DNA of 64,000 nt from the NCBI RefSeq assembly GCF_012396185.1, contig NZ_JAAXOW010000002.1:124001-188000 (forward strand), in the 5' to 3' direction. The notes below the pieces were generated by a model. It was not told the origin of the DNA. It ran no database searches and worked only from the letters and a program-made list of their open reading frames with translations. The first letter of the stretch is position 1. Every line of letters starts with the position of its first letter. The stretch comes from Sanguibacter hominis ATCC BAA-789 (GTDB taxonomy: Bacteria > Actinomycetota > Actinomycetes > Actinomycetales > Cellulomonadaceae). The position numbers and the translations under genes were made by a program. Positions 3,711 through 19,047 of the stretch are shown here, piece by piece.

Positions 3711-3754
3711 CTCCCCGTCGAGGTCGGCTCGGACGCCGTACACGGGCTCGGTCC

Positions 3755-5227
3755 CAGTTGACGTTGACCAACACGTACGACCGGGCTGGGCAGCGCACGG
3801 CGTTGACGTATGCCTCGGGTGACGCCGAGCTTGCCGCGTGGTCCATGGGATACGACATCCAAGGGCGGGTCACGGTCCAGGAGGGGCCGAGCGCTGGCAC
3901 GGAGGGTCGCACGCAGTCGTTCGCGTATGACGGGGCTGATCGTCTGGTGTCCGTCAAGGACGTGCTCGACGGCATGTGCACGACGCGGGACTACGGGTTC
4001 GACCACGGGGGGAACCGTCGGTCGAAGACGGTCAAGTCCTTCGAGGGAGAATCGTGCGTCGGCGAGGCTGCGGTCGAGGAGAGGGCGTGGACCTACGACG
4101 GCGCGGAGCGGGTCCAGACCGGCGCGAACGGTCAGGGTGCGTACGTGTATGACGTGTTCGGACGCCAGACGAGCGTGCCGGGCGTCGATACTGTGGTGGG
4201 CGCTGACGGTGGGGCGCTGTCCGTCGGATACTTCGACAACGACCTGGCGCGCTCCATTACGCAAGGGGACGCGGCGACGACGTTCACCCTTGACGCTGCG
4301 CAGCGGCGAGCAGCGCAGACGACCGTCACAGCCGGCTCGCGGACGACCGTTCAGCGGCACTACACCGACTCCTCCGACAACCCGGGGTGGGCCACGGCGA
4401 CCACGGACGGTAGTGAACCGGTCGTCTCGCGTTATGTCTCGGGCATCAACGGGGACCTTGCCGCCACGGTGACCGGTTCGCGGGTGACGTTGGACGTTGT
4501 CGACCCGCTCGGATCCATCGCCACCACGGTGACCCTCGACGGTGCCACGCGCACGGTGGCAGGCCTGGGCGTCTACGACGAGTACGGCAACGCCATCACC
4601 TCCGGCCCGTCCACCGGAGCCGTCAGCTACGGATGGCTGGGCGGCAAGGAGAGGGCGGCGGACTCGTCAGGCCTGGTCCTGATGGGCGTACGGTTGTACA
4701 ACTCCGTCACCGGCCTGTTCACCTCCGTCGACCCGGTCGAAGGTGGGAATGAGACCATCTACGGTTACCCGAACGACCCGGTCAACAAGCTCGACCTCGA
4801 CGGGCGCAGTTGGCTGAGGCGACTGAAGGGCGCTGGCTCAAGTGTGGTGAAGTGGGGCATTAGGAATCGTGGAACCATCGTAAGTCTGGGTGCGACGGCA
4901 GGGTGTGCTATACCCGCGGTGGGTTGGGCATCGTGCGCGGCTCTCCAAGCGGGGGCCTACGCGGTTCGCGCACAGCAGCGGGGGCTGACAAAGAAGAATC
5001 TCAAGGCAAATCTGTTTGACGGGGTCGCGACAGTGGCAGGATTTGGCGTTATTGGTACCCCAATGCGAATGGCAAAATGCGGCCGGATGGGCAACCCGAT
5101 CTACAACTCGCGCGGGACGTATGTTAAATCGTGGCATGTTGGGAAAAAGACCGGCCGAGCGCTCAGTTTGGGTGTGACCGCGCCCTATGTGTTCTCAAAG
5201 AGCGCCGCGCTCAGGAGGAAGAGATAG
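3755..5227 (+). pseudogene. Rhs/YD-repeat protein, 5'-truncated: end of core plus C-terminal toxin tip
   Basis: About 490 codons of an Rhs protein that has lost its start and most of its shell. YD-type repeats run from YDRAGQRTALTYASGD through YDIQGRV, YDGADRLVSV, YDGAERVQTG and YDVFGRQTS. The core ends with GVRLYNSVTGLFTSVDPV and a PNDPVNKLDLDG motif near 4770-4804, the point where Rhs proteins join their variable tip. The remaining ~140 residues are an unrecognised tip with hydrophobic and basic parts (SLGATAGCAIPAVGWASC, then a Lys/Arg-rich end). Base composition falls visibly in the tip, a common sign of acquired polymorphic-toxin DNA. No start codon with a ribosome site exists at the 5' junction, so it is probably not expressed as a full toxin. 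The stop TAG is followed at once by the ATG of the next gene. Confidence 0.8.
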
Positions 5228-5697
5228 ATGATCGTCATTATTGGCAATCGGCGCCTGGTGGGTTTGCTAAATATGATCGGCCTGCTCGTCGTTGGAGCGA
5301 TGTGGTGCTTCGTTGGCCTAGTTATGACACCTGCGGTGCAGAACTTCTTTGAAGTCGAGGAAGATCCGCCAAGCATTGCGGTCGCTGTGATTGGGATTGG
5401 CTTTGGGCTAGTGACGGTTTGGTATGGGGCCGCGCAGTCTGTGACGCGACGTCCTGGTGCGATTCGAACGGCGCAATGGCCCTTCGGCACGGTGCTTGAA
5501 GGCGCTTGGTCCTTTGAAGCGCATGAGGGGGAGGTCTGGTGGGGCGCGAAGACGGTGGAGATAGTGGGCTCGCGCGAGATGCATGAGGATGTCAGGCTCG
5601 GTGTTCTGACCAGATTCACGTTCTTGAGTTCGGCACGACAGACAAGCCGAGTGGTCGCTACATTGAACGGCTGGGCCCGCGCTGAACCGCCCCGGGT

Positions 5698-5701
<4 letters not shown>
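5228..5701 (+). CDS. Small two-helix membrane protein in the immunity position of the Rhs tip; C-terminus altered by an IS end
   Basis: A 157-residue protein with two hydrophobic segments (about residues 8-34 and 47-70) followed by a soluble part. I do not recognise the family. Its ATG follows the Rhs stop codon directly and a strong AGGAGG lies 9 nt upstream, inside the Rhs tip gene, so it is coupled to the toxin gene as immunity genes usually are. From base 5683 the reading frame runs inside the left inverted repeat of the IS3-type element, so the last residues (EPPRV) and the stop codon come from the insertion sequence and the original C-terminus is lost. GC content is low compared with the rest of the window. 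The immunity role is inferred from position only. Confidence 0.6.

Positions 5702-5710
<9 letters not shown>
5683..5710 (+). repeat. Left inverted repeat of the IS3-type element
   Basis: Starts TGAACCGCCCCGGGTTT and matches the reverse complement of 6960-6987 at 26 of 28 positions (mismatches at 5700 and 5703). It supplies the last codons and stop of the gene at 5228-5701. Confidence 0.92.
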
Positions 5711-6615
<905 letters not shown>

Positions 6616-6618
<3 letters not shown>

Positions 6619-6936
6619 CCTGACTGACGGGCGGTCGAGCTCCGCCGCGAAGAAAGCCGACGCACTGCGCAGGATCGCATTCGCTCGGCGCAGCTCGCGG
6701 TTCTCCCGCTCGAGCTCCGCCAAGCGTTCGGCGTCGGCGGTCGTGGTCCCCGGGCGGGTGCCGGCGTCGATCTCAGTCCGCTGAACCCAGCCGCGCAACG
6801 TCTCGGGGTTGATACCGAGCTGGTCACCGATACGCCGACACGCGCCAGCCGCCGAGCCTGGATCCTTCTTCGCCTCGAGCACGAGCCGGACCGCACGCTC
6901 GCGAAGTTCATCGGGGTACTTCCTGGGTGCTGCCAT
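6616..6936 (-). CDS. IS3-family transposase orfA (helix-turn-helix)
   Basis: A 106-residue OrfA: helix-turn-helix DNA-binding segment (RKYPDELRERAVRLVLEA, then GINPETLRGWVQ) followed by a leucine-zipper-like coiled coil (LAELERENRELRRANAIL). It binds the IS ends and normally forms OrfAB by a -1 frameshift near its 3' end. The ATG at 6936 has GGAGG 9 nt upstream; an ATG 9 bases earlier overlaps that ribosome site. OrfA is intact, but its partner orfB is broken. Confidence 0.85.
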
Positions 6937-6959
6937 GACTCTCATCCTCCGTGGATTGA

Positions 6960-6987
6960 GAGCCTCTACGAAACCCGGGGCGGTTCA
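6960..6987 (-). repeat. Right inverted repeat of the IS3-type element
   Basis: Partner of the repeat at 5683-5710; ends AAACCCGGGGCGGTTCA. It supplies the last codons and stop of the truncated IS30-type frame that reads leftward from 7520. Confidence 0.92.
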
Positions 6988-7520
6988 AGCCGCTCCTGGA
7001 CGTACTCCCGCAGCCTTGGGTTTTCGACAAGCTTCGCGGTCCTGGGCCGCTTGGCGGCCTGCTGTGCCTTCCACTGCGCGACCACCGCGCGGTACCCCTG
7101 CTTCCCACTACGAGTGGCGGCGTTGCGACGCAGTTCTCGAGAGATCGTTCCAGAGTCACGCCCGATAGTGCGGGCGATCTCACGCACGCCCTTGCCCTGG
7201 ACCTTGAGCAGCGCGATCTCCTCGCGTTCCTCGAAGGTCAGGTAACGGCCGCTGGGCTCGGCGAGCGAGATCGGTGGCATGCCGCCAGCGTGGCGAAACC
7301 AGAGGGTCCCGACCGGCACAGATACGCCCACTGTCAGCGCCGCCTCGGCTGAGGTGATGCCCGTTGCGATCAGCCGCCAGAACTCCCGCCGTACAGCTCG
7401 CGATGGCTCCGGGCGACCGGGCGAGCGCATCGCCGGCCTGAGGGCTCGATCGGCACGCCACTGTCGGCGAAGCCCTTCGGGCATCTCGCTGGTCTTCTTA
7501 CTCCACACCGCCGTCGCCAT
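6988..7520 (-). pseudogene. IS30-family transposase, N-terminal fragment
   Basis: About 178 codons of an IS30-type transposase. The N-terminal HTH_38 region (YLTFEEREEIALLKVQGKG, then REIARTIGRDSGTISRELRR) is clear, followed by the linker GYRAVVAQWKAQQAAKRP. The DDE catalytic half is missing because the IS3-type right end cuts the gene at 6987. The lost half is not found on the far side of that IS. The sequence just upstream of its ATG (about 7521-7570) probably holds the surviving IS30 terminal repeat, but its partner is absent so it cannot be delimited. Confidence 0.8.
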
Positions 7521-7647
7521 CCCTGAACACCTCCGAGCTCAAGGTGTTACGACGACAGGTTGAATCCGCTTGGTTCGCAGGGATCGTTGTCGTGGTGCCG
7601 TGAAGTCGTGCAGGCGACGCGATGACCGCCCGCTCCCCGCGGGCCGG

Positions 7648-7653
7648 TAAACT
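7648..7653 (+). promoter_or_regulatory. Candidate -10 box for leaderless leuS mRNA
   Basis: TAAACT is followed by 7 nt and then the GTG start of leuS at 7661, with no Shine-Dalgarno sequence. This spacing predicts transcription starting at the G of the start codon. The -35 region is not recognisable. Confidence 0.5.
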
Positions 7654-7660
7654 CGCGAGA

Positions 7661-10588
7661 GTGACTGACAACCCCAGCGTCCCGAACCAGCCTGCTCCCG
7701 CGCGCTCCGGCGCTACGTCCACGGAGGAGCCGCGACTGCGCTACACGCCGCAGCTCGCCGAGGAAATCGAGCTGCGCTGGCAGGACCGCTGGGCTGAGCG
7801 CGGCACGTTCTGGGCCGCGAACCCGAGCGGGGCGCTCACGGACGGCAAGGGCCGCCACGCAGACCCGTCGTCGTCGAGCTTCTTCGTCATGGACATGTTC
7901 CCGTACCCCTCGGGTGCGGGCCTGCACGTCGGCCACCCGCTCGGCTACATCGCGACCGACGTCGTCGGGCGCTTCCGCCGCATGTGCGGCGACAACGTGC
8001 TGCACGCGCTCGGCTTCGACGCGTTCGGCCTGCCCGCCGAGCAGTACGCGGTCCAGACGGGTCAGCACCCTCGCATCACGACCGACCAGAACATCGCGAA
8101 CATGCAGCGCCAGCTGCGTCGCCTCGGCCTCGCCCACGACGAGCGTCGCTCGTTCGCGACGACGGACAGCGAGTACGTGCGCTGGACGCAGTGGATCTTC
8201 CTGCAGATCTTCAGCTCCTGGTACGACGAGTCGGCCGTCCGGCCCGACGGCGGCACGGGCATGGCCCGCCCGATCTCCGAGCTCGAGGCCGAGCTCGCGG
8301 ACGGCACCCGCCCGACGCCCGACGGCACGCCGTGGGCCGACATGGACGCCGTCGCGCGGCGCCGCCTCGTCGACTCCTACCGGCTCGCCTACGTCTCCGA
8401 GTCGCCCGTGAACTGGTGCCCGGGCCTCGGCACGGTCCTCGCGAACGAGGAGGTCACGGCCGACGGCCGCTCCGAGCGCGGCAACTTCCCCGTGTTCCAG
8501 CGCAGCCTGCGCCAGTGGAACATGCGCATCACCGCGTACGCCGACCGCCTGGCAGACGACCTCGAGGACATCGACTGGCCCGACAAGGTCAAGGCGATGC
8601 AGCGCAACTGGATCGGCCGCTCCCAGGGGGCCAAGGTCACGTTCGCCGTGCAGGGCGGCACCGAGGTCGAGGTCTTCACGACACGCCCCGACACCCTCTT
8701 CGGCGCGACCTTCATGGTCGTCGCCCCTGAGCACCCGGTCCTCGATGAGGTCCCCGCAGCATGGCCCGACGGCACGCGCGACGTCTGGACCGGCGGGCAC
8801 GCGAGCCCCGCCGAGGCCGTCGCCGCGTACCGCGCCGAGGCTGCTGCGAAGACCGCCGTCGAGCGTCAGGCCGACGCCGGCCGCAAGACGGGCGTGTTCA
8901 CCGGCCACCTCGCGACCAACCCCGTCAACGGTGAGCTGCTCCCCGTCTTCACCGCCGACTACGTCCTCATGGGCTACGGCACCGGCGCGATCATGGCCGT
9001 CCCGGGCGGCGACGAGCGCGACTACGCGTTCGCCCAGGCCTTCGACGTGCCCGTCGTCTACACCGTCGACGCGCCCGAGGGCACGCCGGACGGCGCGCGC
9101 ACGGGAGACGGCGCGATCATCAACTCGTCGAACGACTCGATCTCGCTCGACGGCCTGTCCGTCCCCGAGGCCAAGGCCGCGATGATCGCGTGGCTCGAGG
9201 AGCGCGGCATCGGCGAGGGCACCATCACGTACCGTCTGCGCGACTGGCTGTTCAGCCGTCAGCGCTACTGGGGCGAGCCGTTCCCGATCGTGTACGACGA
9301 AAACGACCTGCCCATCGCGATCCCGGACTCCGCCCTGCCCGTCGACCTGCCCGACGTGCCCGACTACTCGCCGCGCACGTACGACCCGCAGGACGCCCAG
9401 TCGTCGCCCGAGCCCCCGCTCGGCCGCAACGAGGACTGGGTCACCGTCACCCTCGACCTCGGCGACGGCCCGCGCGAGTACCGCCGCGACACGAACACGA
9501 TGCCCAACTGGGCCGGTTCGTGCTGGTACTACCTGCGCTACCTCGACCCGACCAACGCCGACGCGGCGGTGTCCGCCGAGCTCGAGAAGTACTGGCTCGG
9601 CCCCGACCACAACGCGACCGCCGGCGCCGCGGGCGGCGTCGACCTGTACGTCGGCGGCGTCGAGCACGCCGTGCTGCACCTGCTCTACGCACGCTTCTGG
9701 CACAAGGTCCTCTTCGACCTCGGGCACGTCTCGGGTGCGGAGCCGTTCCACAAGCTCTTCAACCAGGGCTACGTCCAGGCGTACGCCTACACGGACGCGC
9801 GCGGCGCCTACGTCCCCGCTGCGGAGGTCACGGAGACGACGGGCGCCGACGGCGAGACCGAGTACCGCTACCACGGCGAGGTCGTGCAGCGCGAGTACGG
9901 CAAGATGGGCAAGTCCCTCAAGAACGTCGTCACGCCCGACGAGATGTACGACGCGTACGGCGCCGACACCTTCCGGGTCTACGAGATGTCGATGGGTCCG
10001 CTCGACCTGTCGCGCCCGTGGGAGACGCGCGCCGTCGTCGGCTCGCAGCGCTTCCTGCAGCGGCTGTGGCGCAACGTCGTCGACGAGACGAACGGCGCCG
10101 TGACCGTGACAGACGACGAGCCCGACACCGCGACGCTGCGCGTGCTGCACCGCGCGATCGCGGACGTGCGCGCCGAGATGGAGGCGATGCGCCCCAACAC
10201 CGCGATCGCCAAGCTCATCACGCTCAACAACCACCTCACGAGTCTGCCCGCCGTCCCGCGCGTCGCAGCCGAGGCGATCGTGCTCATGACCGCGCCCGTC
10301 GCGCCGCACATCGCCGAAGAGCTGTGGGAGCGCCTCGGCCACACCGAGTCGCTCGCCTACGAGCCCTTCCCGGTCGCCGACGAGGCGTACCTCGTCGAGG
10401 ACACCGTGACGTGCGTCGTCCAGGTCCAGGGCAAGGTCCGCGCACGTCTCGAGGTGTCGCCGTCGATCAGCGACGCCGACCTCGAGGCCGCCGCCCTCGC
10501 CGAGCCCGCGCTCGTGCGCTTCCTCGACGGCCGTCCCGTGCGGAAGGTCATCGTCAAGGCGCCGAAGCTCGTCAACGTCGTCATCTGA
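7661..10588 (+). CDS. leuS: Leucyl-tRNA synthetase
   Basis: Class I aminoacyl-tRNA synthetase that charges tRNA-Leu; 975 residues, normal for bacterial LeuRS. The HIGH-type motif [16 protein letters not shown] is at about 81-96. The CP1 editing domain follows ([20 protein letters not shown], later [15 protein letters not shown]). The KMSKS loop is [10 protein letters not shown] at about 746-755, then the anticodon-binding domain. GTG 7661 is preferred to the ATG at 7622 because a -10 box sits exactly 7 nt upstream of it. The JetA gene begins only 3 nt after the leuS stop, so the Jet genes may depend partly on leuS transcription. Confidence 0.97.
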
Positions 10589-10591
10589 CGG

Positions 10592-12121
10592 GTGGAGATC
10601 CCGCACACCGCGATCGGCGGTGCGCTCGCCGGTGCGCAACGCGCCTTCGAGCGCCCGACGCTCACGCTCCTGCACAAGCAGAGCGCGCCGCTCGTCGTCG
10701 CCGTCTTCGCGTCCGCGTTCCAAGGGCGGCAGTCGATCGGCGTCGAGCAGCTGCACCTCGAGGTCTCCGACCTGCTCGCCGAGCTCACGCGCGCCGGCAC
10801 CCCTGACGTGCCGGACGACCCGGCGCGCGTCCTGTGCGCGCGCTGGGTCCGCGAGCGGTGGCTCATCAAGAACGTCAACGACGCGGACGAGGAGGAGTAC
10901 CAGCTCACCTCGCACGCTCAGGAGGCGCTCGACTTCGTCGCACGCGCCGGCGGTGCCCGTTCCCTCGTCTCGGAGTCGCGCATCCGCGCGCTGCTCGACG
11001 CCGTCGACCACTTCGCGCAGGACGCCAACCCCGACCGCGACGCACGGATCGCGTCGCTCGACGAGCAGATCGCCCGGCTGAGCGCCGAGCGCGACCGGCT
11101 CGCCCGCGGCGGCGCTGTCGAGCCCGTGCCCGACGCCCGCATGGAGGAGCAGCACGACCACCTCCTGCTGCTCATGCGCGAGCTGCCGACCGACTTCACG
11201 CGCGTCGCGGAGTCGATCAAGGAGCTGCAGCGCACGATCATCCAGCAGCTCCGCGAGGACGACCGGCCTACGGGCGAGATCCTCGAGGAGTACCTGACCG
11301 CGTCCGAGAACCTCATGGAGAACACGCCCGAGGGGCGTGCGTTCCTCGGTGCGCTCGAGCTGCTCGGTGACCCGGGGCTGCTCGCGCGGCTCGACGCCGA
11401 CCTCGCGGCGATCCTCCAGCACCGCTTCGCCGACCGGCTCACGCGCAGCCAGCGCACCGCTCTGCGCGGCATCCGGCACCAGATCGTCTCGTCGATCGAG
11501 GTCGTGCTCGCCGAGCAGGCGCGCGCGTCGCGGACGCTCACCGCGCAGATCCGCTCGCACAACCCGCTGCGCGACCGCGAGCTCGACCACGCGATCCGTG
11601 ACGTCGTCTCCGCGCTGTCGGAGTGGTTCCCGCAGACGGCGCGCGGTGCCCGCGTCGAGCCGCTCACGTGGCTCGGCCGCGCCCACCTCGGAAGGCTGCG
11701 CGACTCGCTGCACGACCTGCGGCCCGAGTCGCCGCCCCCGGTCCTCGACGACTGGGCCGACGACGAGCCCGGGCTCGACGAGGCCGAGCTCGCGCAGATC
11801 CGCTCGATGGGCGGCCCACGGCACGCCGACATCGACGCGCACGTGCGCGCGCTGCTCGCCGCCGGCACGGACGTCTCCGTAGCCGAGGCGTTCGCGGCGG
11901 GCACGGAAGAGCTGCGCCGCCCGGTCGACCTGCTCGGCTACCTCGAGCTCGCCGACGCGACGCCGACGACCGCGGCCGCCGAGGTACCAGTCGAGAGCGT
12001 CGTGGCCCGCAGGCCGGACGGCACGCAGCGCACGTTTGTCGTGCCGCGCGTGCCGTTGCGACCGACCCCCAGCGACGAGAACCTGACCCCTGCCCCGCCC
12101 GACACCGGAGGACGACCATGA
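10592..12121 (+). CDS. jetA: JetA/MksF-like kleisin subunit (DUF3375 family) of a Wadjet-type SMC complex
   Basis: A 509-residue protein that I assign to the DUF3375/JetA family, the kleisin-like subunit that bridges the SMC arms in Wadjet/MksBEF complexes. These complexes extrude DNA loops and restrict small circular plasmids. Seen here: winged-helix-like N-terminus (LLHKQSAPLVVAVFASAF), a charged coiled segment at about 145-220 (IASLDEQIARLSAERDRLA) and an arginine-rich helical C-terminal half. GTG 10592 follows the leuS stop by 3 nt without a clear ribosome site. It overlaps jetB by 4 bases (ATGA). The assignment rests on the three-gene order with jetB and jetC more than on any single motif. 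Confidence 0.8.
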   Translation: MEIPHTAIGGALAGAQRAFERPTLTLLHKQSAPLVVAVFASAFQGRQSIGVEQLHLEVSDLLAELTRAGTPDVPDDPARVLCARWVRERWLIKNVNDADEEEYQLTSHAQEALDFVARAGGARSLVSESRIRALLDAVDHFAQDANPDRDARIASLDEQIARLSAERDRLARGGAVEPVPDARMEEQHDHLLLLMRELPTDFTRVAESIKELQRTIIQQLREDDRPTGEILEEYLTASENLMENTPEGRAFLGALELLGDPGLLARLDADLAAILQHRFADRLTRSQRTALRGIRHQIVSSIEVVLAEQARASRTLTAQIRSHNPLRDRELDHAIRDVVSALSEWFPQTARGARVEPLTWLGRAHLGRLRDSLHDLRPESPPPVLDDWADDEPGLDEAELAQIRSMGGPRHADIDAHVRALLAAGTDVSVAEAFAAGTEELRRPVDLLGYLELADATPTTAAAEVPVESVVARRPDGTQRTFVVPRVPLRPTPSDENLTPAPPDTGGRP

Positions 12122-12933
12122 CCGAGGACCTGACCACGGTGCCCTTCTCGCCGGGCCCCGGCGCGTTCGTCGACACGGTCGCCATGGAGGAGGACTCGGC
12201 CGTCCTGTTCGACGGCGACAAGGGCCAGCTCCCGTACGAGGCGCGGCGCGCCTTCGCGCTGCTCCTGCGCTCGCGCTACCTCTCCGCGGCGGACAACCCG
12301 GGGGAGTGGCGTGCGCTGCTCGCCCACCAGGACGTCCTCGAGAGCCGCTGCCACGACCTGTTCCTGCAGCTCGTCGTCGACCGTGACTACGAGCTGGCGT
12401 ACAAGACGCAGGTCCGCGAGGACGGGCTCGCCGTGCCGATCCTGCTCAAGGACGAGCCGTACAAGCGCGTCGAGACGCTCATGATGGTGCACCTGCGCAA
12501 CGCGTTCCGTCAGCAGCAGGGTGCGGGCGAGCGGGTCGCGTTCATCGATGCCGAGGAACTGGTCGAGTACGCGCTGAGCTACCTCGCGCGGGACGAGACG
12601 AACCTTGCTGCGCGCCGCCGCGAGGCGGACAACGCGATCGCGACGCTCGTGCGCGAGCACGTCCTCGACGAGGTCGGCGAAGGGCGCTACCGCATCCTGC
12701 CCGTGATCGAGGTGCTGCTCCCGGTGGACCGCCTCCACGAGCTCGCGCGGTGGCTGCGGAACCCTGGTGGCGCGGACGCCGACGGGGCCGCTCACCTGGA
12801 CAGCGCCCTCGACGAGGGCGACGCCGACGACGAACCTCTCGACGACGTCGCGCCCGAGGACGACGCGACCGACGAGGCCGCGCCGCGCACCGCGGACGCC
12901 CCGCACGACGACGCCGAGGAGGCGCTGCTGTGA
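12118..12933 (+). CDS. jetB: JetB/MksE-like subunit (DUF4194 family)
   Basis: A 271-residue protein of the DUF4194/JetB (MksE-like KITE) family, which dimerises on the kleisin of the SMC complex. The core is residues 30-215, with winged-helix signatures such as LPYEARRAFALLLRSRYLSA and VPILLKDEPYKRVETLMMVH. The C-terminal 50 residues are an Asp/Glu/Ala-rich tail (DEGDADDEPLDDVAPEDD), probably disordered. ATG 12118 overlaps the jetA stop and its own stop overlaps the jetC GTG at 12930, so the three subunits are translationally coupled. Confidence 0.85.
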   Translation: MTEDLTTVPFSPGPGAFVDTVAMEEDSAVLFDGDKGQLPYEARRAFALLLRSRYLSAADNPGEWRALLAHQDVLESRCHDLFLQLVVDRDYELAYKTQVREDGLAVPILLKDEPYKRVETLMMVHLRNAFRQQQGAGERVAFIDAEELVEYALSYLARDETNLAARRREADNAIATLVREHVLDEVGEGRYRILPVIEVLLPVDRLHELARWLRNPGGADADGAAHLDSALDEGDADDEPLDDVAPEDDATDEAAPRTADAPHDDAEEALL

Positions 12934-15900
12934 CGACCATGAGCCAGTCCCTGTTCGGGCTGATCCCGACCGCGTCGACGGGCCAGCAGTGGGTCGCGCG
13001 CTCGATGCAGCTCATCAACTGGGGCGGCTACCACGGCTTCCACGAGGTCGCGTTCGCCTCGACCGCCACGCTCCTGTCGGGCGGGTCGGGCACCGGCAAG
13101 TCGACGCTCCTCGACGCGTACATCGCGCTGACGATGAGCCACACGACCCCGTTCAACGGTGCGTCCAACGGCGCGGCGTCGGGCCGGGCGCGCGGCCGCG
13201 AGCAGCGCAACGTGCTCTCGTACGCACGCGGCAAGCTCGACGAGGCCCGTGTCGCGGGCACGAGCTCGTCGCGCGACGCGGTCCTGCGCGGGGACGGCAC
13301 CGACACGTGGTCCGCGATCGCGATGACGTGGGCCGACCAGGTCGGGCAGACGTTCACCGCGGTCCGCGCCTACTACGTCCCCGCCGCCGCGACCCGCAAC
13401 GACGAGTGCACGCTCGTGCGCGCGACGACGGACTCGGCGTTCGACCTGCGTTCGCTCGAGCCGTTCGCGACCGGGCGCTTCCCGCGCGGCCCGCTCCAGG
13501 AGCGGCTCGGCCTCGCGTTGCACGACACGGACATCGCGTTCACGACGCGCCTGCACGCGACCCTCGGCATCGGCGCCGCAGGCGACGGGGCGAAGGCCAT
13601 GGGCCTGCTCGCCCGCATCCAGGCCGGGCAGCAGATCACGACCGTCGACGCGCTCTACAAGTCGATGGTCCTCGAAGAGCCGGAGACGCTCGCGAAGGCG
13701 CAGGAGGCGATCGACCACTTCGACGAGCTGAGCGAGGTCCGCGAGGAGATGCTGACCGCGCAGCGGCAGCTCGAGGTCCTCTCGCCGATCGTGGGGCTGC
13801 GCCAGCGCGTCGAGGCGGCTCGCGAGCAGCTCGAGGTCGTCTCGACGCTCGGCGTCGAGCGCGCGTCCGAGCGCACGACGCCGTTCGCGCACTGGCACGA
13901 CTCACGGCGCCTCGAGCTCGCCCGCGCCCAGGAGGTCGCCAACCGGCGCGCCCACGCGCAGGCCGAGGAGCGCAAGGTCGGGCTCGACGCGCAGATCCTC
14001 GTGACCGAGCGTGAGCACGAGGAGGTCAAGGACAACCAGCGTCGCAACGGCGGCGACGAGATCGCTCGCCTCGAACGCGAGATCGCGGCGCTCGAGGATG
14101 CCCTCGGCGACACCGAGGTCCGCCACGCGCGCTTCGAGCAGCACCGCGCCGTCGTCGGCGTGCCCGTCACGTCGAAGAGCGAGTTCGAGGCGCTGCGACG
14201 CACCGCGGCCGCGTTCGTCGACTCGCGTGACGCGCGTGAGCGTGAGCTCGCCGACGCGGTCTACGAGGCGCGTGCCGCGCAGGCTGAGGCTGTGCGCGGC
14301 CTCGAGACGCTCGACCGTGAGAAGGCGTCCCTCGCGGTGCGCCGTGGCAACGTCGCGGCCGAGGACCACCAGGCGCGGTGCCTGCTCGCTCAGGCGGCCG
14401 GACTGACGCCCGACGAGCTCCCGTTCGTCGCGGAGCTGCTCGACGTCCGTGCCGAGCACGAGCCGTGGCGCGAGGCGATCGGCCTCGCGCTCGGGGGCTT
14501 CGCGACGACGCTCCTCGTCGACGCCGACCACCTCACCGCGTTCCGCCGTGCGATCAACGACGTGGACCTGCGCCGTCGCCTCCGGTTCGAGGGCGTACGG
14601 ACGGGCCTGCCCGTCGTCGAGCAGGCCGACCGTTCCCGGCTCGACGGGCGTCTCGACGTCAAGCACGGCCCGTTCACAGGCTGGCTCACCGACCGCCTCG
14701 CCCGGCAGTTCGCGTACGTGTGCGTCGACGACCCCGCCGACCTCGGCAAGCACGCGAAGGCGCTCACGCGCACGGGCCAGACGAACGACGGCAGCAGGGG
14801 AGCGCACGGTGGGCGCGGCCGGCCGAGCGTCCTCGGGTTCTCCAACGAGCGGCGCCTCGCGCAGATCGACGAGGAGCGCCGCGAGGCGACCGTCGCGGTC
14901 GCCGAGCGTCGCCGGGACGTCGAGGACGCCGAGGCTGCAGCCCGCGCGTTCACCGACCAGTTCGCCGCCTACCAGGCCATCGGCGGGTTCGCGTGGGACG
15001 AGATCGACGTGCGCGGCGCGACGCGCCGCGTCGCCGAGCGTCGCGAACGGTTCGACGAGCTCGCCGCGGGCAGCGACGTGCTGCGCGCTCTGCGCGAGGA
15101 CGAGCAGCGTCTCGCCGCGAGGCTCAAGGACCTGCGCACGCAGTCGTCGCGCGCCGCGGTCGAGATGGAGCGCCTCGAGACTGCGTGGGGGACGCTCACC
15201 GACGAGGTCGACGAGCTCTCCGACGGTCTCGCCGAGCTCGAGGACGCGGGCGTCGCGGCGACCGACGTCCAGGTGACGCTGCTCGACGACCGCCTCGCGG
15301 CGTCGGGCTGGGACGGGGGCGACCTCCGGGCGTTCACGAGCGCGGTCGCGGCCATGCGGGCCGATCTCGTGCACGCGCACGAGCTCGCTGCGCACGACCT
15401 GCAGTCCGCGCAGGACACGCTCGCGCGGACGTTCGAGCGCTTCGTCGAGATGTGGCCCAACCCGAACCTCGGCACGGACCCCGACGACTCCTACGACGAC
15501 TTCAGGCGGATCCTCGGCGAGATCGAGCATCAGCGCATGTACTCGCTGCGCGAGCGGTGGAGCCGTGCGATCTCACGCCTCTCGGGCCGCGACCTGACCA
15601 TGCTCGACACGGCGATCGAGCAGGCGGTCGCGGACATCCGCGCGCGCATGGAACCCGTCAACGAGATCCTCTCGGTCCTGCCCTTCCACGACGACGCGCA
15701 CCGCCTGCGCATCACCGCGACCGTCACGGAGGCGCACGACATCACGACGTTCCGTCGCGAGCTGCGGGCCCTCGCGAAGGACGTGCCCGACGACGCGACG
15801 CCCGTCGAGCGCGAGCGGCGCTACGCGCGGATGGCGAAGCTCCTCGCCCGCATCCGGCCGGACAGCCCGGAGCGCCGCCGGCTCGTGGACGTGCGCGAGC

Positions 15901-16277
15901 ACGTGCGGATCAGTGCGGAGTGCGTCGACCTCGAGGGCAACCACGTGAGCGTCTATGACCACATCGCGGGGAAGTCTGGCGGCGAGTCGCAGGAGCTCAT
16001 CGCGTTCATCGTCGGCGCGGCGCTGCGCTACCAGCTCGGCGACGCGGACGCCGAGCGGCCGCGGTACGCGCCTGTGTTCCTCGACGAGGCGTTCATCAAG
16101 GCGGACTCGCGGTTCGCCGGGCGGGCGGTCGGTGCGTGGCGGGGGCTCGGGTTCCAGCTGATCATCGGTGCGCCGCTCGACAAGGTGTCGGCGCTCGAGC
16201 CGCACGTGGACCTGGTGCTGCAGGCGGTCAAGGACGAGGTCGGGCGCTCGCGCGTGCAGTGGGTCGCGGCGTCCTGA
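12930..16277 (+). CDS. jetC: JetC/MksB-like SMC ATPase
   Basis: A 1115-residue SMC/MukB-like ATPase. Walker A is GGSGTGKSTLLDA at about 51-63. Long charged coiled coils run from about 280 to 480 and 640 to 900. A hinge-like globular part lies near 495-570 (ELLDVRAEHEPWREAIGLAL). The signature motif is GKSGGESQELIAF near 1014, and Walker B is PVFLDEAFIKAD near 1050. ATP binding and hydrolysis would drive DNA loop extrusion in the cytoplasm. GTG 12930 overlaps the jetB stop; an ATG at 12939 is an alternative. All ATPase motifs look intact. The gene that should follow, the topoisomerase-VI-like nuclease jetD, is absent: a convergent gene ends 7 bp downstream. Confidence 0.9.
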   Translation: MTTMSQSLFGLIPTASTGQQWVARSMQLINWGGYHGFHEVAFASTATLLSGGSGTGKSTLLDAYIALTMSHTTPFNGASNGAASGRARGREQRNVLSYARGKLDEARVAGTSSSRDAVLRGDGTDTWSAIAMTWADQVGQTFTAVRAYYVPAAATRNDECTLVRATTDSAFDLRSLEPFATGRFPRGPLQERLGLALHDTDIAFTTRLHATLGIGAAGDGAKAMGLLARIQAGQQITTVDALYKSMVLEEPETLAKAQEAIDHFDELSEVREEMLTAQRQLEVLSPIVGLRQRVEAAREQLEVVSTLGVERASERTTPFAHWHDSRRLELARAQEVANRRAHAQAEERKVGLDAQILVTEREHEEVKDNQRRNGGDEIARLEREIAALEDALGDTEVRHARFEQHRAVVGVPVTSKSEFEALRRTAAAFVDSRDARERELADAVYEARAAQAEAVRGLETLDREKASLAVRRGNVAAEDHQARCLLAQAAGLTPDELPFVAELLDVRAEHEPWREAIGLALGGFATTLLVDADHLTAFRRAINDVDLRRRLRFEGVRTGLPVVEQADRSRLDGRLDVKHGPFTGWLTDRLARQFAYVCVDDPADLGKHAKALTRTGQTNDGSRGAHGGRGRPSVLGFSNERRLAQIDEERREATVAVAERRRDVEDAEAAARAFTDQFAAYQAIGGFAWDEIDVRGATRRVAERRERFDELAAGSDVLRALREDEQRLAARLKDLRTQSSRAAVEMERLETAWGTLTDEVDELSDGLAELEDAGVAATDVQVTLLDDRLAASGWDGGDLRAFTSAVAAMRADLVHAHELAAHDLQSAQDTLARTFERFVEMWPNPNLGTDPDDSYDDFRRILGEIEHQRMYSLRERWSRAISRLSGRDLTMLDTAIEQAVADIRARMEPVNEILSVLPFHDDAHRLRITATVTEAHDITTFRRELRALAKDVPDDATPVERERRYARMAKLLARIRPDSPERRRLVDVREHVRISAECVDLEGNHVSVYDHIAGKSGGESQELIAFIVGAALRYQLGDADAERPRYAPVFLDEAFIKADSRFAGRAVGAWRGLGFQLIIGAPLDKVSALEPHVDLVLQAVKDEVGRSRVQWVAAS

Positions 16278-16283
16278 CCTGTC

Positions 16284-18128
16284 TCAGCGCTTGCGCGTGC
16301 CGAAGATCGTGCGCGTGATCTCGCGACCGAGCTGTGTCCCGGCTGAGCGGAGGAGCGCGTCGAGCCCGCCGCTCGCACCGCTGCTGCGTGACCGTCTCTG
16401 CGCCCGCGGGGCAGGGCGGGCGGCGTCGCGCTCGAGCTTCGCGCGCATGCGCTCGAGCTCGGCGGCCTGCTTCTTCGCCTCCTTCTCGGCGGCAGCGCGG
16501 GCGGCCTCGTCCGCCTTCGCCTGCTCCCCGGCCAGCCGCTGCGCCTCCGCAGCGGCCGCCTGCGCGGCGACGCGCTGCGCGAGCAGCTCGTACGCGGACT
16601 CGTTGTCGACGGCGGTCGCGTAGCGCGGCGCGAGGGGCGACGCCGCGACGAGGCTGTCGAGGGTCGCGGCCGGTGCCGGGTCCATCGATCCCTGGGGCGC
16701 GCGCAGCCGCGTCCACGCGACGGGCGTCGGTGCGCCCTTCTCGCTCAGCACCGTCACGACGGCCTCGCCCGTGCCCAGCTCCTGCAGGAGGCGCTCGAGG
16801 TCGTAGTCGCTCGTCGGGTAGGTGCGCGCGGCTGCACGCAGGGCCGCGGCGTCGTCGGGCGTAAACGCGCGCAGGGCGTGCTGGACCCGGTTGCCGAGCT
16901 GCGCCAGCACGTCCGCTGGCACGTCCTTCGGGCTCTGCGTCACGAAGAACACGCCCACGCCCTTGGACCGGATGAGTCGGACTGTCTGCACGACCTGCGT
17001 GAGGAAGTCCTTCGAGGCGCCCGTGAACAGCAGGTGCGCCTCGTCGAAGAAGAACACGAGGCGCGGCTTGTCGACGTCGCCCACCTCGGGAAGCTCGCCG
17101 AACAGGTCGGCGAGCAGCCACATGAGGAACGTCGAGAACAGCTGCGGACGGTCCTGCACCGCGGGCAGCTGGAGCGCGGAGACGACCCCGCGCCCGTCCG
17201 GCGCGGTGCGCAGCAGGTCGGCCGTGTCGAAGGCGGGCTCGCCGAAGAACGCGTCCGCGCCCTGCGCCTGCAGCGCGACGATCTCCCGCAGGATCACGCC
17301 CGCCGTCGCTGCCGAGACCCCGCCGAGCGTCGTGAGCTCGGCCTTGCCCTCGGGTGAGGTGAGGTACGAGATCGTCGCCTTCAGGTCCTTGAGGTCGAGC
17401 AGTGCGAGGCCCTGCGTGTCTGCCCAGTGGAAGATCAGCCCGAGGCACGACTCCTGCGTGTCGTTGAGCCCGAGGACCTTCGCGAGCAGGAGCGGCCCGA
17501 AGTCCGTGACGGTGGTGCGGACCGGCGTGCCGACGCCCATGCCTCCGAGCGAGAACGGCTCGACCGGGAAGCTTGCCGCTGTCCAGTCCTGGCCGAGGCT
17601 CGCCGTGCGTGCGAGCAGCTTCTCGCCGCCAGCGCCCGGGACAGCCATGCCGGACAGGTCGCCCTTGATGTCCGCGACGAACACGGGGACGCCGTGCGTC
17701 GAGAGCTCCTCGGCCATGAGCTGGAGCGTGCGTGTCTTGCCGGTGCCGGTCGCGCCAGCGACGAGGCCGTGCCGGTTGAGCATCGCGAGCGGGAGGCCGA
17801 CCTGGACGTCGGGGAGCGGGACCGCCTCGGCGCCGCCGTCGGTGGAGAGGAGCGCGCCGAGGCGGAGCATGGGGCCGGCGAACGTGTAGCCGTCCGCGAC
17901 ACGCTGGGCGTGCTCGTTGCGCGCCGCGGGAGCGGGAGGCGCGGGGGCGCTCGGCGCGGCGGCGGGAGGCGCGGGCGAGGCGGGCGGGGGAAGCGTGGCG
18001 GCGGCCTCGGCCGCCTCGAGCGCGGCCTGCGCGGCGACCGCGCGGGCCTCAGCGGCCTCTGCCGCAGCGTGGGCGGCTGCGGCGCGCAGAGCCGCGAGGT
18101 CGGCAGGACCGTGGGCGTCGTCGCTCAT
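16284..18128 (-). CDS. HerA-like/DUF853 AAA+ ATPase
   Basis: A 614-residue protein of the HerA/DUF853 group of FtsK-HerA ATPases. Walker A is GATGTGKT at 125-132, Walker B is RLVFFFDEAHLLF near 350, and the nearby IRSKGVGVFFVTQSPKDVP is the sensor-like strand typical of the family. Residues 12-70 are an Ala/Pro-rich, probably disordered N-terminus. Residues 535-590 form a charged Ala-rich coiled coil. Such proteins are hexameric DNA or protein translocases whose substrate in most bacteria is unknown. The ATG at 18128 has no ribosome site but has a -10 box 6 nt upstream. It ends tail to tail with jetC, 7 bp apart. A functional link is possible but not shown. Confidence 0.85.
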   Translation of the reverse strand: MSDDAHGPADLAALRAAAAHAAAEAAEARAVAAQAALEAAEAAATLPPPASPAPPAAAPSAPAPPAPAARNEHAQRVADGYTFAGPMLRLGALLSTDGGAEAVPLPDVQVGLPLAMLNRHGLVAGATGTGKTRTLQLMAEELSTHGVPVFVADIKGDLSGMAVPGAGGEKLLARTASLGQDWTAASFPVEPFSLGGMGVGTPVRTTVTDFGPLLLAKVLGLNDTQESCLGLIFHWADTQGLALLDLKDLKATISYLTSPEGKAELTTLGGVSAATAGVILREIVALQAQGADAFFGEPAFDTADLLRTAPDGRGVVSALQLPAVQDRPQLFSTFLMWLLADLFGELPEVGDVDKPRLVFFFDEAHLLFTGASKDFLTQVVQTVRLIRSKGVGVFFVTQSPKDVPADVLAQLGNRVQHALRAFTPDDAAALRAAARTYPTSDYDLERLLQELGTGEAVVTVLSEKGAPTPVAWTRLRAPQGSMDPAPAATLDSLVAASPLAPRYATAVDNESAYELLAQRVAAQAAAAEAQRLAGEQAKADEAARAAAEKEAKKQAAELERMRAKLERDAARPAPRAQRRSRSSGASGGLDALLRSAGTQLGREITRTIFGTRKR

Positions 18129-18140: not shown

Positions 18141-18170
18141 TGACCCACGTGCTGCGGCGGCGTGTTGGCG

Positions 18171-18176
18171 TAGTCT
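18171..18176 (+). promoter_or_regulatory. Candidate -10 box for degV
   Basis: TAGTCT followed by 7 nt and the ATG at 18184; no Shine-Dalgarno sequence. Predicts a leaderless transcript. Confidence 0.5.
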
Positions 18177-18183
18177 GCGAGCG

Positions 18184-19047
18184 ATGCCACACCTCTCCCA
18201 CGCCGTGCGGGTCGTCACCGACTCGACGGCGTCCTTGCCTGCCGCGACGCTCGAGCGCCTGCGGATGACGGTCGTGCCGTTGCACGTCCACGTGGGCGAC
18301 ACGGTCTACCTGGAGGGTGTCGATCTCGCGCCGGAGCAGGTCGCGGCGCTCGTCGCCGGCCCGGAGCGTGTGACGACGTCGCAGCCCACCCCCGCGATGT
18401 TCGCCGAGGCGTACGCGCGGCTCGCGAGCGAGGGGGCGCAGGAGATCGTGTCGGTGCACCTGTCGGGCGAGCTGTCCGGGACGGTCGGTGCCGCCGCGCT
18501 CGGTGCGCGCGAGGTCGGCGTCCCGGTGCACGTCGTCGACTCGCGCACGGTGGCCGGTGCGCTCGGCACGGCCGCGGAGGTCGCGGCGCGCGCCGCGGCG
18601 GGCGGCGCGACGGGGGAGGACGTCGCAGAGCGCGCGCGGCGGACGGCCGAGGCCTCTGACGCGACCTTTCTCGTCGACTCCCTCGACTACCTGCGCCGCG
18701 GCGGGCGCCTGAGCCGGACGGCGAGCGCGATCGGCGGGATGCTCGCGATGAAGCCGCTCCTGACGGTCGTGGACGGTCGCGTCGAGGTGCTCGCGAAGGT
18801 GCGTACGCGGGCCGCCGCGATCGAGCGGCTCGCGGAGATCGCACGTGGCCAGGTGCGCGGCTGCTCGTCGCCCGTCGTCACGGTGCACCACCTCGACTCC
18901 CCGCACGACGCCGGTGAGCTGGCGGTCGAGCTCACGGGAGCGACCGGGGTCGCGGCTCGGGTGACGCCTGTCGGGGCGGTCCTCGGTGCGCACGTGGGTC
19001 CCGGGCTCCTCGCGGTCGTCGTGGCCGACGCCGACCCGCGGGGCTGA
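18184..19047 (+). CDS. DegV family fatty-acid-binding protein
   Basis: A 287-residue DegV-family protein. The family binds a fatty acid in a two-lobe fold, and some members are FakB subunits that present fatty acids to the FakA kinase. Typical features are the opening VRVVTDSTASLPAATLER, the ligand-loop TSQPTPAMFAEAYARL near 62, HLSGELSGTVGAA near 95 and FLVDSLDYLRRGGRLS near 163. No FakA-like kinase gene is in the window, so fatty-acid kinase partnership is only a family-based guess. Confidence 0.9.
   Translation: MPHLSHAVRVVTDSTASLPAATLERLRMTVVPLHVHVGDTVYLEGVDLAPEQVAALVAGPERVTTSQPTPAMFAEAYARLASEGAQEIVSVHLSGELSGTVGAAALGAREVGVPVHVVDSRTVAGALGTAAEVAARAAAGGATGEDVAERARRTAEASDATFLVDSLDYLRRGGRLSRTASAIGGMLAMKPLLTVVDGRVEVLAKVRTRAAAIERLAEIARGQVRGCSSPVVTVHHLDSPHDAGELAVELTGATGVAARVTPVGAVLGAHVGPGLLAVVVADADPRG

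Follow-up and report, generated by a model that had tools for sequence, protein, structure and literature searches.

A nuclease-free JetABC set conserved beside leuS in Sanguibacter and related Actinobacteria, likely an auxiliary condensin

The stretch of DNA analysed here (the window, 64,000 nucleotides of Sanguibacter hominis ATCC BAA-789) carries the jetABC genes of a type I Wadjet system without the nuclease gene jetD. Type I Wadjet, JetABCD, is also known as MksBEFG or EptABCD. The reading that we consider likely is that this is a Wadjet core that lost JetD and kept its motor, and that it works as an auxiliary condensin of the MksBEF type beside SMC-ScpAB.

The three genes follow one another on the forward strand. 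As the first-pass annotation had described, the set directly follows leuS (7622..10588, +; assigned by sequence) and its genes overlap by four bases each. The GTG start of jetA (10592..12121, +; 509 aa, MksF/MukF-like kleisin, DUF3375) lies 3 bp past the leuS stop, and an ATGA overlap joins jetA to jetB (12118..12933, +; 271 aa, MksE/MukE-like KITE protein, DUF4194). The junction of jetB with jetC (12930..16277, +; 1115 aa, MksB/MukB-like SMC ATPase) is a GTGA overlap if a GTG start is used for jetC; an alternative ATG 9 bp downstream would leave a 5-bp gap. The annotation had closed the set at 16283. Its coordinates hold, except that jetC stops at 16277 and the last 6 bp are the gap to the end of an opposite-strand gene, also noted there, which encodes a HerA_C (DUF853-type) ATPase convergent to jetC (16284..18128, −; Pfam HerA_C, 622 bits). 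Beyond it, degV (18169..19047, +; Pfam DegV) forms the right border of the leuS/degV insertion site.

PADLOC profiles identified the products as JetA1 (580 bits, 9.7e-175), JetB1 (260 bits, 3.4e-78) and, over its full length, JetC1 (1454 bits), while Pfam assigned DUF3375 to jetA (381 bits), DUF4194 to jetB (125 bits) and AAA_29 with SbcC_Walker_B to jetC. All three proteins matched solved Wadjet chains of E. coli and P. aeruginosa by sequence, JetA reaching E ~1e-16 against the JetA chains 8q72, 8as8 and 8dk1 (phmmer) and JetC 1.8e-49 against E. coli JetC (8as8). As the first reading had it, the ATPase motifs of JetC are unbroken, with GGSGTGKS as Walker A, KSGGE as the signature and VFLDEA as Walker B. 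The AF2 model of JetB was matched first by JetB (8dk1/8as8; TMt 0.65-0.75) and next by MukE; that of JetA was matched by Wadjet JetA and then by MukF over ~500 columns at TM-scores of 0.25-0.30, which are low because the domain arrangement differs or the relative placement of the domains is uncertain in the model. The three genes thus code for the kleisin, KITE and SMC subunits of type I Wadjet, and all are intact. MukBEF belongs to the same superfamily, and the predicted JetA and JetB folds match its MukF and MukE too, but the similarity is much lower, and the MukB N-terminal domain (PF04310) scores 20.7 bits, under the cut-off of 23. Furthermore, MukBEF stands in place of SMC-ScpAB, but the present genome encodes both SMC and ScpB.

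What the operon does not contain is JetD, the Toprim nuclease with DUF3322 and DUF2220/JetD_C domains. The initial observation that none is readable in the window extends to the whole genome (2,982,542 bases), where we found no match to any of four profiles: PF09983 and PF11795 from Pfam, PADLOC PDLC00530, the model best fitting actinobacterial JetDs, and a profile made from an alignment of eight neighbourhood JetDs. The option that JetD is encoded elsewhere is thereby excluded for this genome. Searches of this kind detected JetD in two related genomes (G005 and G025) and in C. glutamicum, and therefore work. That a JetD acts in trans and was overlooked, being too divergent for the profiles or missing from the assembly, is very improbable. 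The assembly is in eight contigs and profile searches have their limits, but its completeness is 100 and its contamination 0.12, the searches that came back empty are the ones that find JetD in other genomes, and three relatives closed in a single contig (G001, G003 and G015) showed no JetD by profile search either.

The set therefore resembles type I Wadjet in that full-length homologues of JetA, JetB and JetC lie in one operon with the same gene order, overlaps and ATPase motifs, and differs from it in that JetD/MksG is missing from locus and genome alike and in its place in the leuS/degV core region. It should not be classed as Wadjet, since a defining part, JetD, was searched for and is absent. 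Another close counterpart is MksBEF of P. aeruginosa, which probably derived from JetABCD by loss of JetD and which shares with SMC-ScpAB the task of organising and segregating the chromosome (PMC10586767, PMC7485682). Both are three-gene kleisin-KITE-SMC sets with no nuclease; ours combines an SMC-like ATPase with intact motifs, a kleisin and a KITE protein, is conserved and under purifying selection, and coexists with SMC-ScpAB, going by the SMC and ScpB matches. It differs in subfamily and phylum, belonging to the actinobacterial JetC1 group (PDLC00517), in its linkage to leuS, and in that its chromosome role is a putative one. The components, and a nuclease-free MksBEF from Pseudomonas, are already known. 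Going by the literature that we found, the novelty lies in the actinobacterial lineage linked to leuS, in the intermediates with jetD scars described below and in how large a fraction is JetD-less.

Comparison of the leuS-jetABC-HerA locus over relatives, which the first-pass annotation had proposed, showed that the JetD-less set is kept between leuS and degV and that the HerA_C gene is variable. JetC has an orthologue in all five sampled congeners (72-96% identity) and in many other genera; the named loci include Flavimobilis, Isoptericola, Krasilnikoviella, Paraoerskovia, Luteimicrobium, Timonella, Jonesia and Puerhibacterium. The arrangement beside leuS occurs in at least 10 genera. It amounts to 25 distinct loci, typically ordered leuS-jetABC-(herA or glgP)-degV-comEA, and none of them has jetD (0/25). 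We checked 12 same-family genomes that have no such set beside leuS, and in 11 of them degV is the next gene after leuS, in one case at a distance of ~1.1 kb; jetABC therefore occupies the leuS-degV junction. The distance from leuS to jetA ranges from 1 to 301 bp over the 25 loci and is at most 14 bp in 12 of them. Because of this short gap, jetABC is probably co-transcribed with leuS. By our own count in the order sample, 28 of 36 same-family genomes carry JetC of this clade, a frequency far higher than the ~5-10% prevalence of Wadjet in bacteria (PMC10586767).

Such a distribution bears on whether we are looking at a complete Wadjet that is decaying after a recent loss of jetD in one strain, the case that the first reading had named as refuting. 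Scarred loss of jetD does happen in Actinomadura relatives. Here, however, the five sampled congeners and the related genera carry the same JetD-less set at the same site, which refutes a strain-specific loss, and no stops or broken motifs were seen in the sets of the clade. Selection points the same way. By the Nei-Gojobori method, dN/dS of JetC in three congeneric pairs is 0.059-0.095, against 0.068-0.106 for leuS. Between the window and the relative with 96%-identical JetC, the values are 0.059 for JetC, 0.111 for JetA, 0.236 for JetB and 0.106 for leuS; the two further pairs are similar, and JetB is the least constrained in all three. The genes jetA, jetB and jetC are under strong purifying selection, and we discarded the decaying one-strain Wadjet on these comparative data as scarcely credible.

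Several lines show that JetD was lost repeatedly from JetABC sets. On a JetC tree of 95 sequences (17 with JetD, 78 without), the labels need at least 11-12 changes, a soft count, since the tree was quickly made and its outer branches are long. The JetC and JetD trees of the same 17 loci are largely congruent, with pairwise identities correlated at r=0.97; JetD was therefore passed down along with JetABC, and its absence means loss. Direct proof comes from two Actinomadura species, in which deletion scars lie beside intact jetABC, between jetC and the next gene. The complete Actinomadura locus, L151, reads jetABC-jetD-histidine kinase. L152 has the same neighbours, but all that separates jetC from the kinase is MTPAGTTRPAAYDAIATAGPTPFRRIEQEAIPLTEAATRLLDVLPKSPP (scar at L152:11343-11436), the first codons of jetD joined to its last ~40 codons. 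At L150 (scar at 11349-11423), both tips of jetD are retained and frameshifted. These scars, together with the congruent trees, bear out the option of loss that had been put forward from the window. Promicromonospora likewise has loci with jetD (L128) and without it (L057, L061, L139), as does Myceligenerans (L138 with, L132 without). At the leuS locus we found no jetD remnant, so loss there is read from the tree and may be old, or may have preceded insertion beside leuS. A review has proposed that MksBEF and MukBEF come from Wadjet through loss of JetD (PMC10586767), and the clade offers natural before-and-after pairs for testing this proposal: jetD present, scar, clean loss and fixed core set.

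JetABC is thought to extrude DNA loops and JetD to cut when extrusion has revealed a small circle, according to the total-extrusion model (PMC10586767). On the condensin reading that we favour, the kleisin JetA and the KITE protein JetB would close JetC ATPase dimers, and the complexes, probably paired into a dimer of dimers, would bind DNA and extrude loops like Wadjet. Without JetD, this extrusion would never end in cleavage. The leuS operon would supply JetABC at the level of a housekeeping gene, and the complex would work alongside SMC-ScpAB in organising or segregating the chromosome. The genome encodes SMC (913 bits) and ScpB (167 bits), so JetABC would be an extra, second condensin. A chromosome role is probable by analogy, from conservation under strong constraint, near-core distribution, operon position, coexistence with JetABCD and the Pseudomonas precedent. 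The first-pass annotation had listed a pure loop-extruding condensin among its options; it stands as the best remaining reading of the putative function.

The C. glutamicum homologue, which has the nuclease, is a plasmid-defence system (PMC10123090), and a chromosome role therefore cannot be assumed. The main alternative, unlikely in our judgement, is that JetABC is still directed against plasmids, either sequestering small circles by extrusion, as has been proposed for Smc5/6 silencing, or passing them on to a nuclease unrelated to JetD whose gene lies elsewhere. The sensor and motor part is unbroken, and PADLOC scores the entire clade as Wadjet. Moreover, the N-terminal segment of JetB, F[VI]..V.MEED...LF.GD.G, is equally conserved in sets with and without JetD. 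Nothing in the sequence therefore points to remodelling of the surface that would face JetD, and the segment is uninformative about the JetD contact. An 'IFDR' motif has been described for JetB (PMC10586767); it could not be placed in the JetB of this lineage. Against plasmid defence speak the housekeeping position and the presence in 28/36 family genomes, unlike the patchy spread of defence genes, and the lack of a conserved adjoining nuclease gene, the neighbours being herA_C, degV, glgP, comEA and comEC. We looked for a replacement nuclease at more than 20 loci by classing the neighbours with Pfam and clustering them, and none was both conserved and nuclease-like. A GIY-YIG nuclease match beside degV (L045:13024-13773, and at the same position in L046) is weak and limited to two sister genomes. 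HerA_C was rejected as a substitute for JetD; it is a helicase-type ATPase and stands beside the set in some genera only.

Four genomes (G005, G020, G209 and G375) contain a set of this clade together with a complete, divergent JetABCD, and the two are therefore not interchangeable. Such coexistence would also fit a JetABC that protects against or regulates JetABCD arriving from outside, or further SMC systems, for instance as a competitor for JetD or for DNA. We regard this as improbable: complete Wadjet is missing from most carriers, and the JetC proteins of the two sets are just ~26-37% identical.

Among 396 Micrococcales genomes, we found JetC in 172 (E up to 1e-30) and JetD in 89, and 89 of the 172 JetC-bearing genomes have no JetD at all. 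An adjacent JetD was seen in 6 of 80 named loci; on five contigs the sequence ends too soon past jetC to judge. Wadjet has been reported in ~42% of actinobacterial genomes (PMC10482375), in calls that may not all include JetD. A census that takes JetA, JetB or JetC for 'Wadjet' puts plasmid defence too high, and since about half of the JetC-bearing genomes are without the nuclease, many Micrococcales 'Wadjet' calls may be chromosome machines and not plasmid defences. We see roughly even chances for the wider proposition, that Actinobacteria repeatedly made a housekeeping condensin of plasmid-cutting Wadjet by deleting jetD, and that one such conversion became near-core in the Cellulomonadaceae/Jonesiaceae group as part of the leuS operon.

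Further JetD-less sets were observed in other lineages. One, comprising L064 (G046) and others of family f11, has JetC ~30% identical to that of the window. Its jetA, jetB and jetC are often kilobases apart (e.g. G046:C1:1266589-1284052, where siderophore-transport and alcohol-dehydrogenase genes lie between jetB and jetC), and all three are kept in 10 of 10 genomes checked. Another occurs in Microbacteriaceae, mostly Curtobacterium (L159-L184, L186, L187, L190), with JetC at 39-42% identity; jetD was detected in none of the jetABC sets found there, and most Curtobacterium loci with a long enough flank share a conserved small downstream ORF and a POT transporter. Finally, L077 (G011) and L080 (G035) encode divergent JetC homologues of ~1,306-1,318 aa, ~150-200 aa above the usual length, with no adjacent jetD.

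Upstream of leuS, an insertion of ~3.9 kb (window positions 3711-7633) separates it from a VKOR gene. Within it lie a C-terminal fragment of Rhs/YD-repeat type, a small ORF that looks membrane-bound and partly frameshifted remnants of IS3-like (rve) and IS30-like (HTH_38) transposases. The mobile-element scar noted in the first reading is real, but it is absent from the closest relative, whose JetC is 96% identical, and is therefore recent and unrelated to the set. We also rejected the scar as the cause of the arrangement, as L044 has the same jet set without it.
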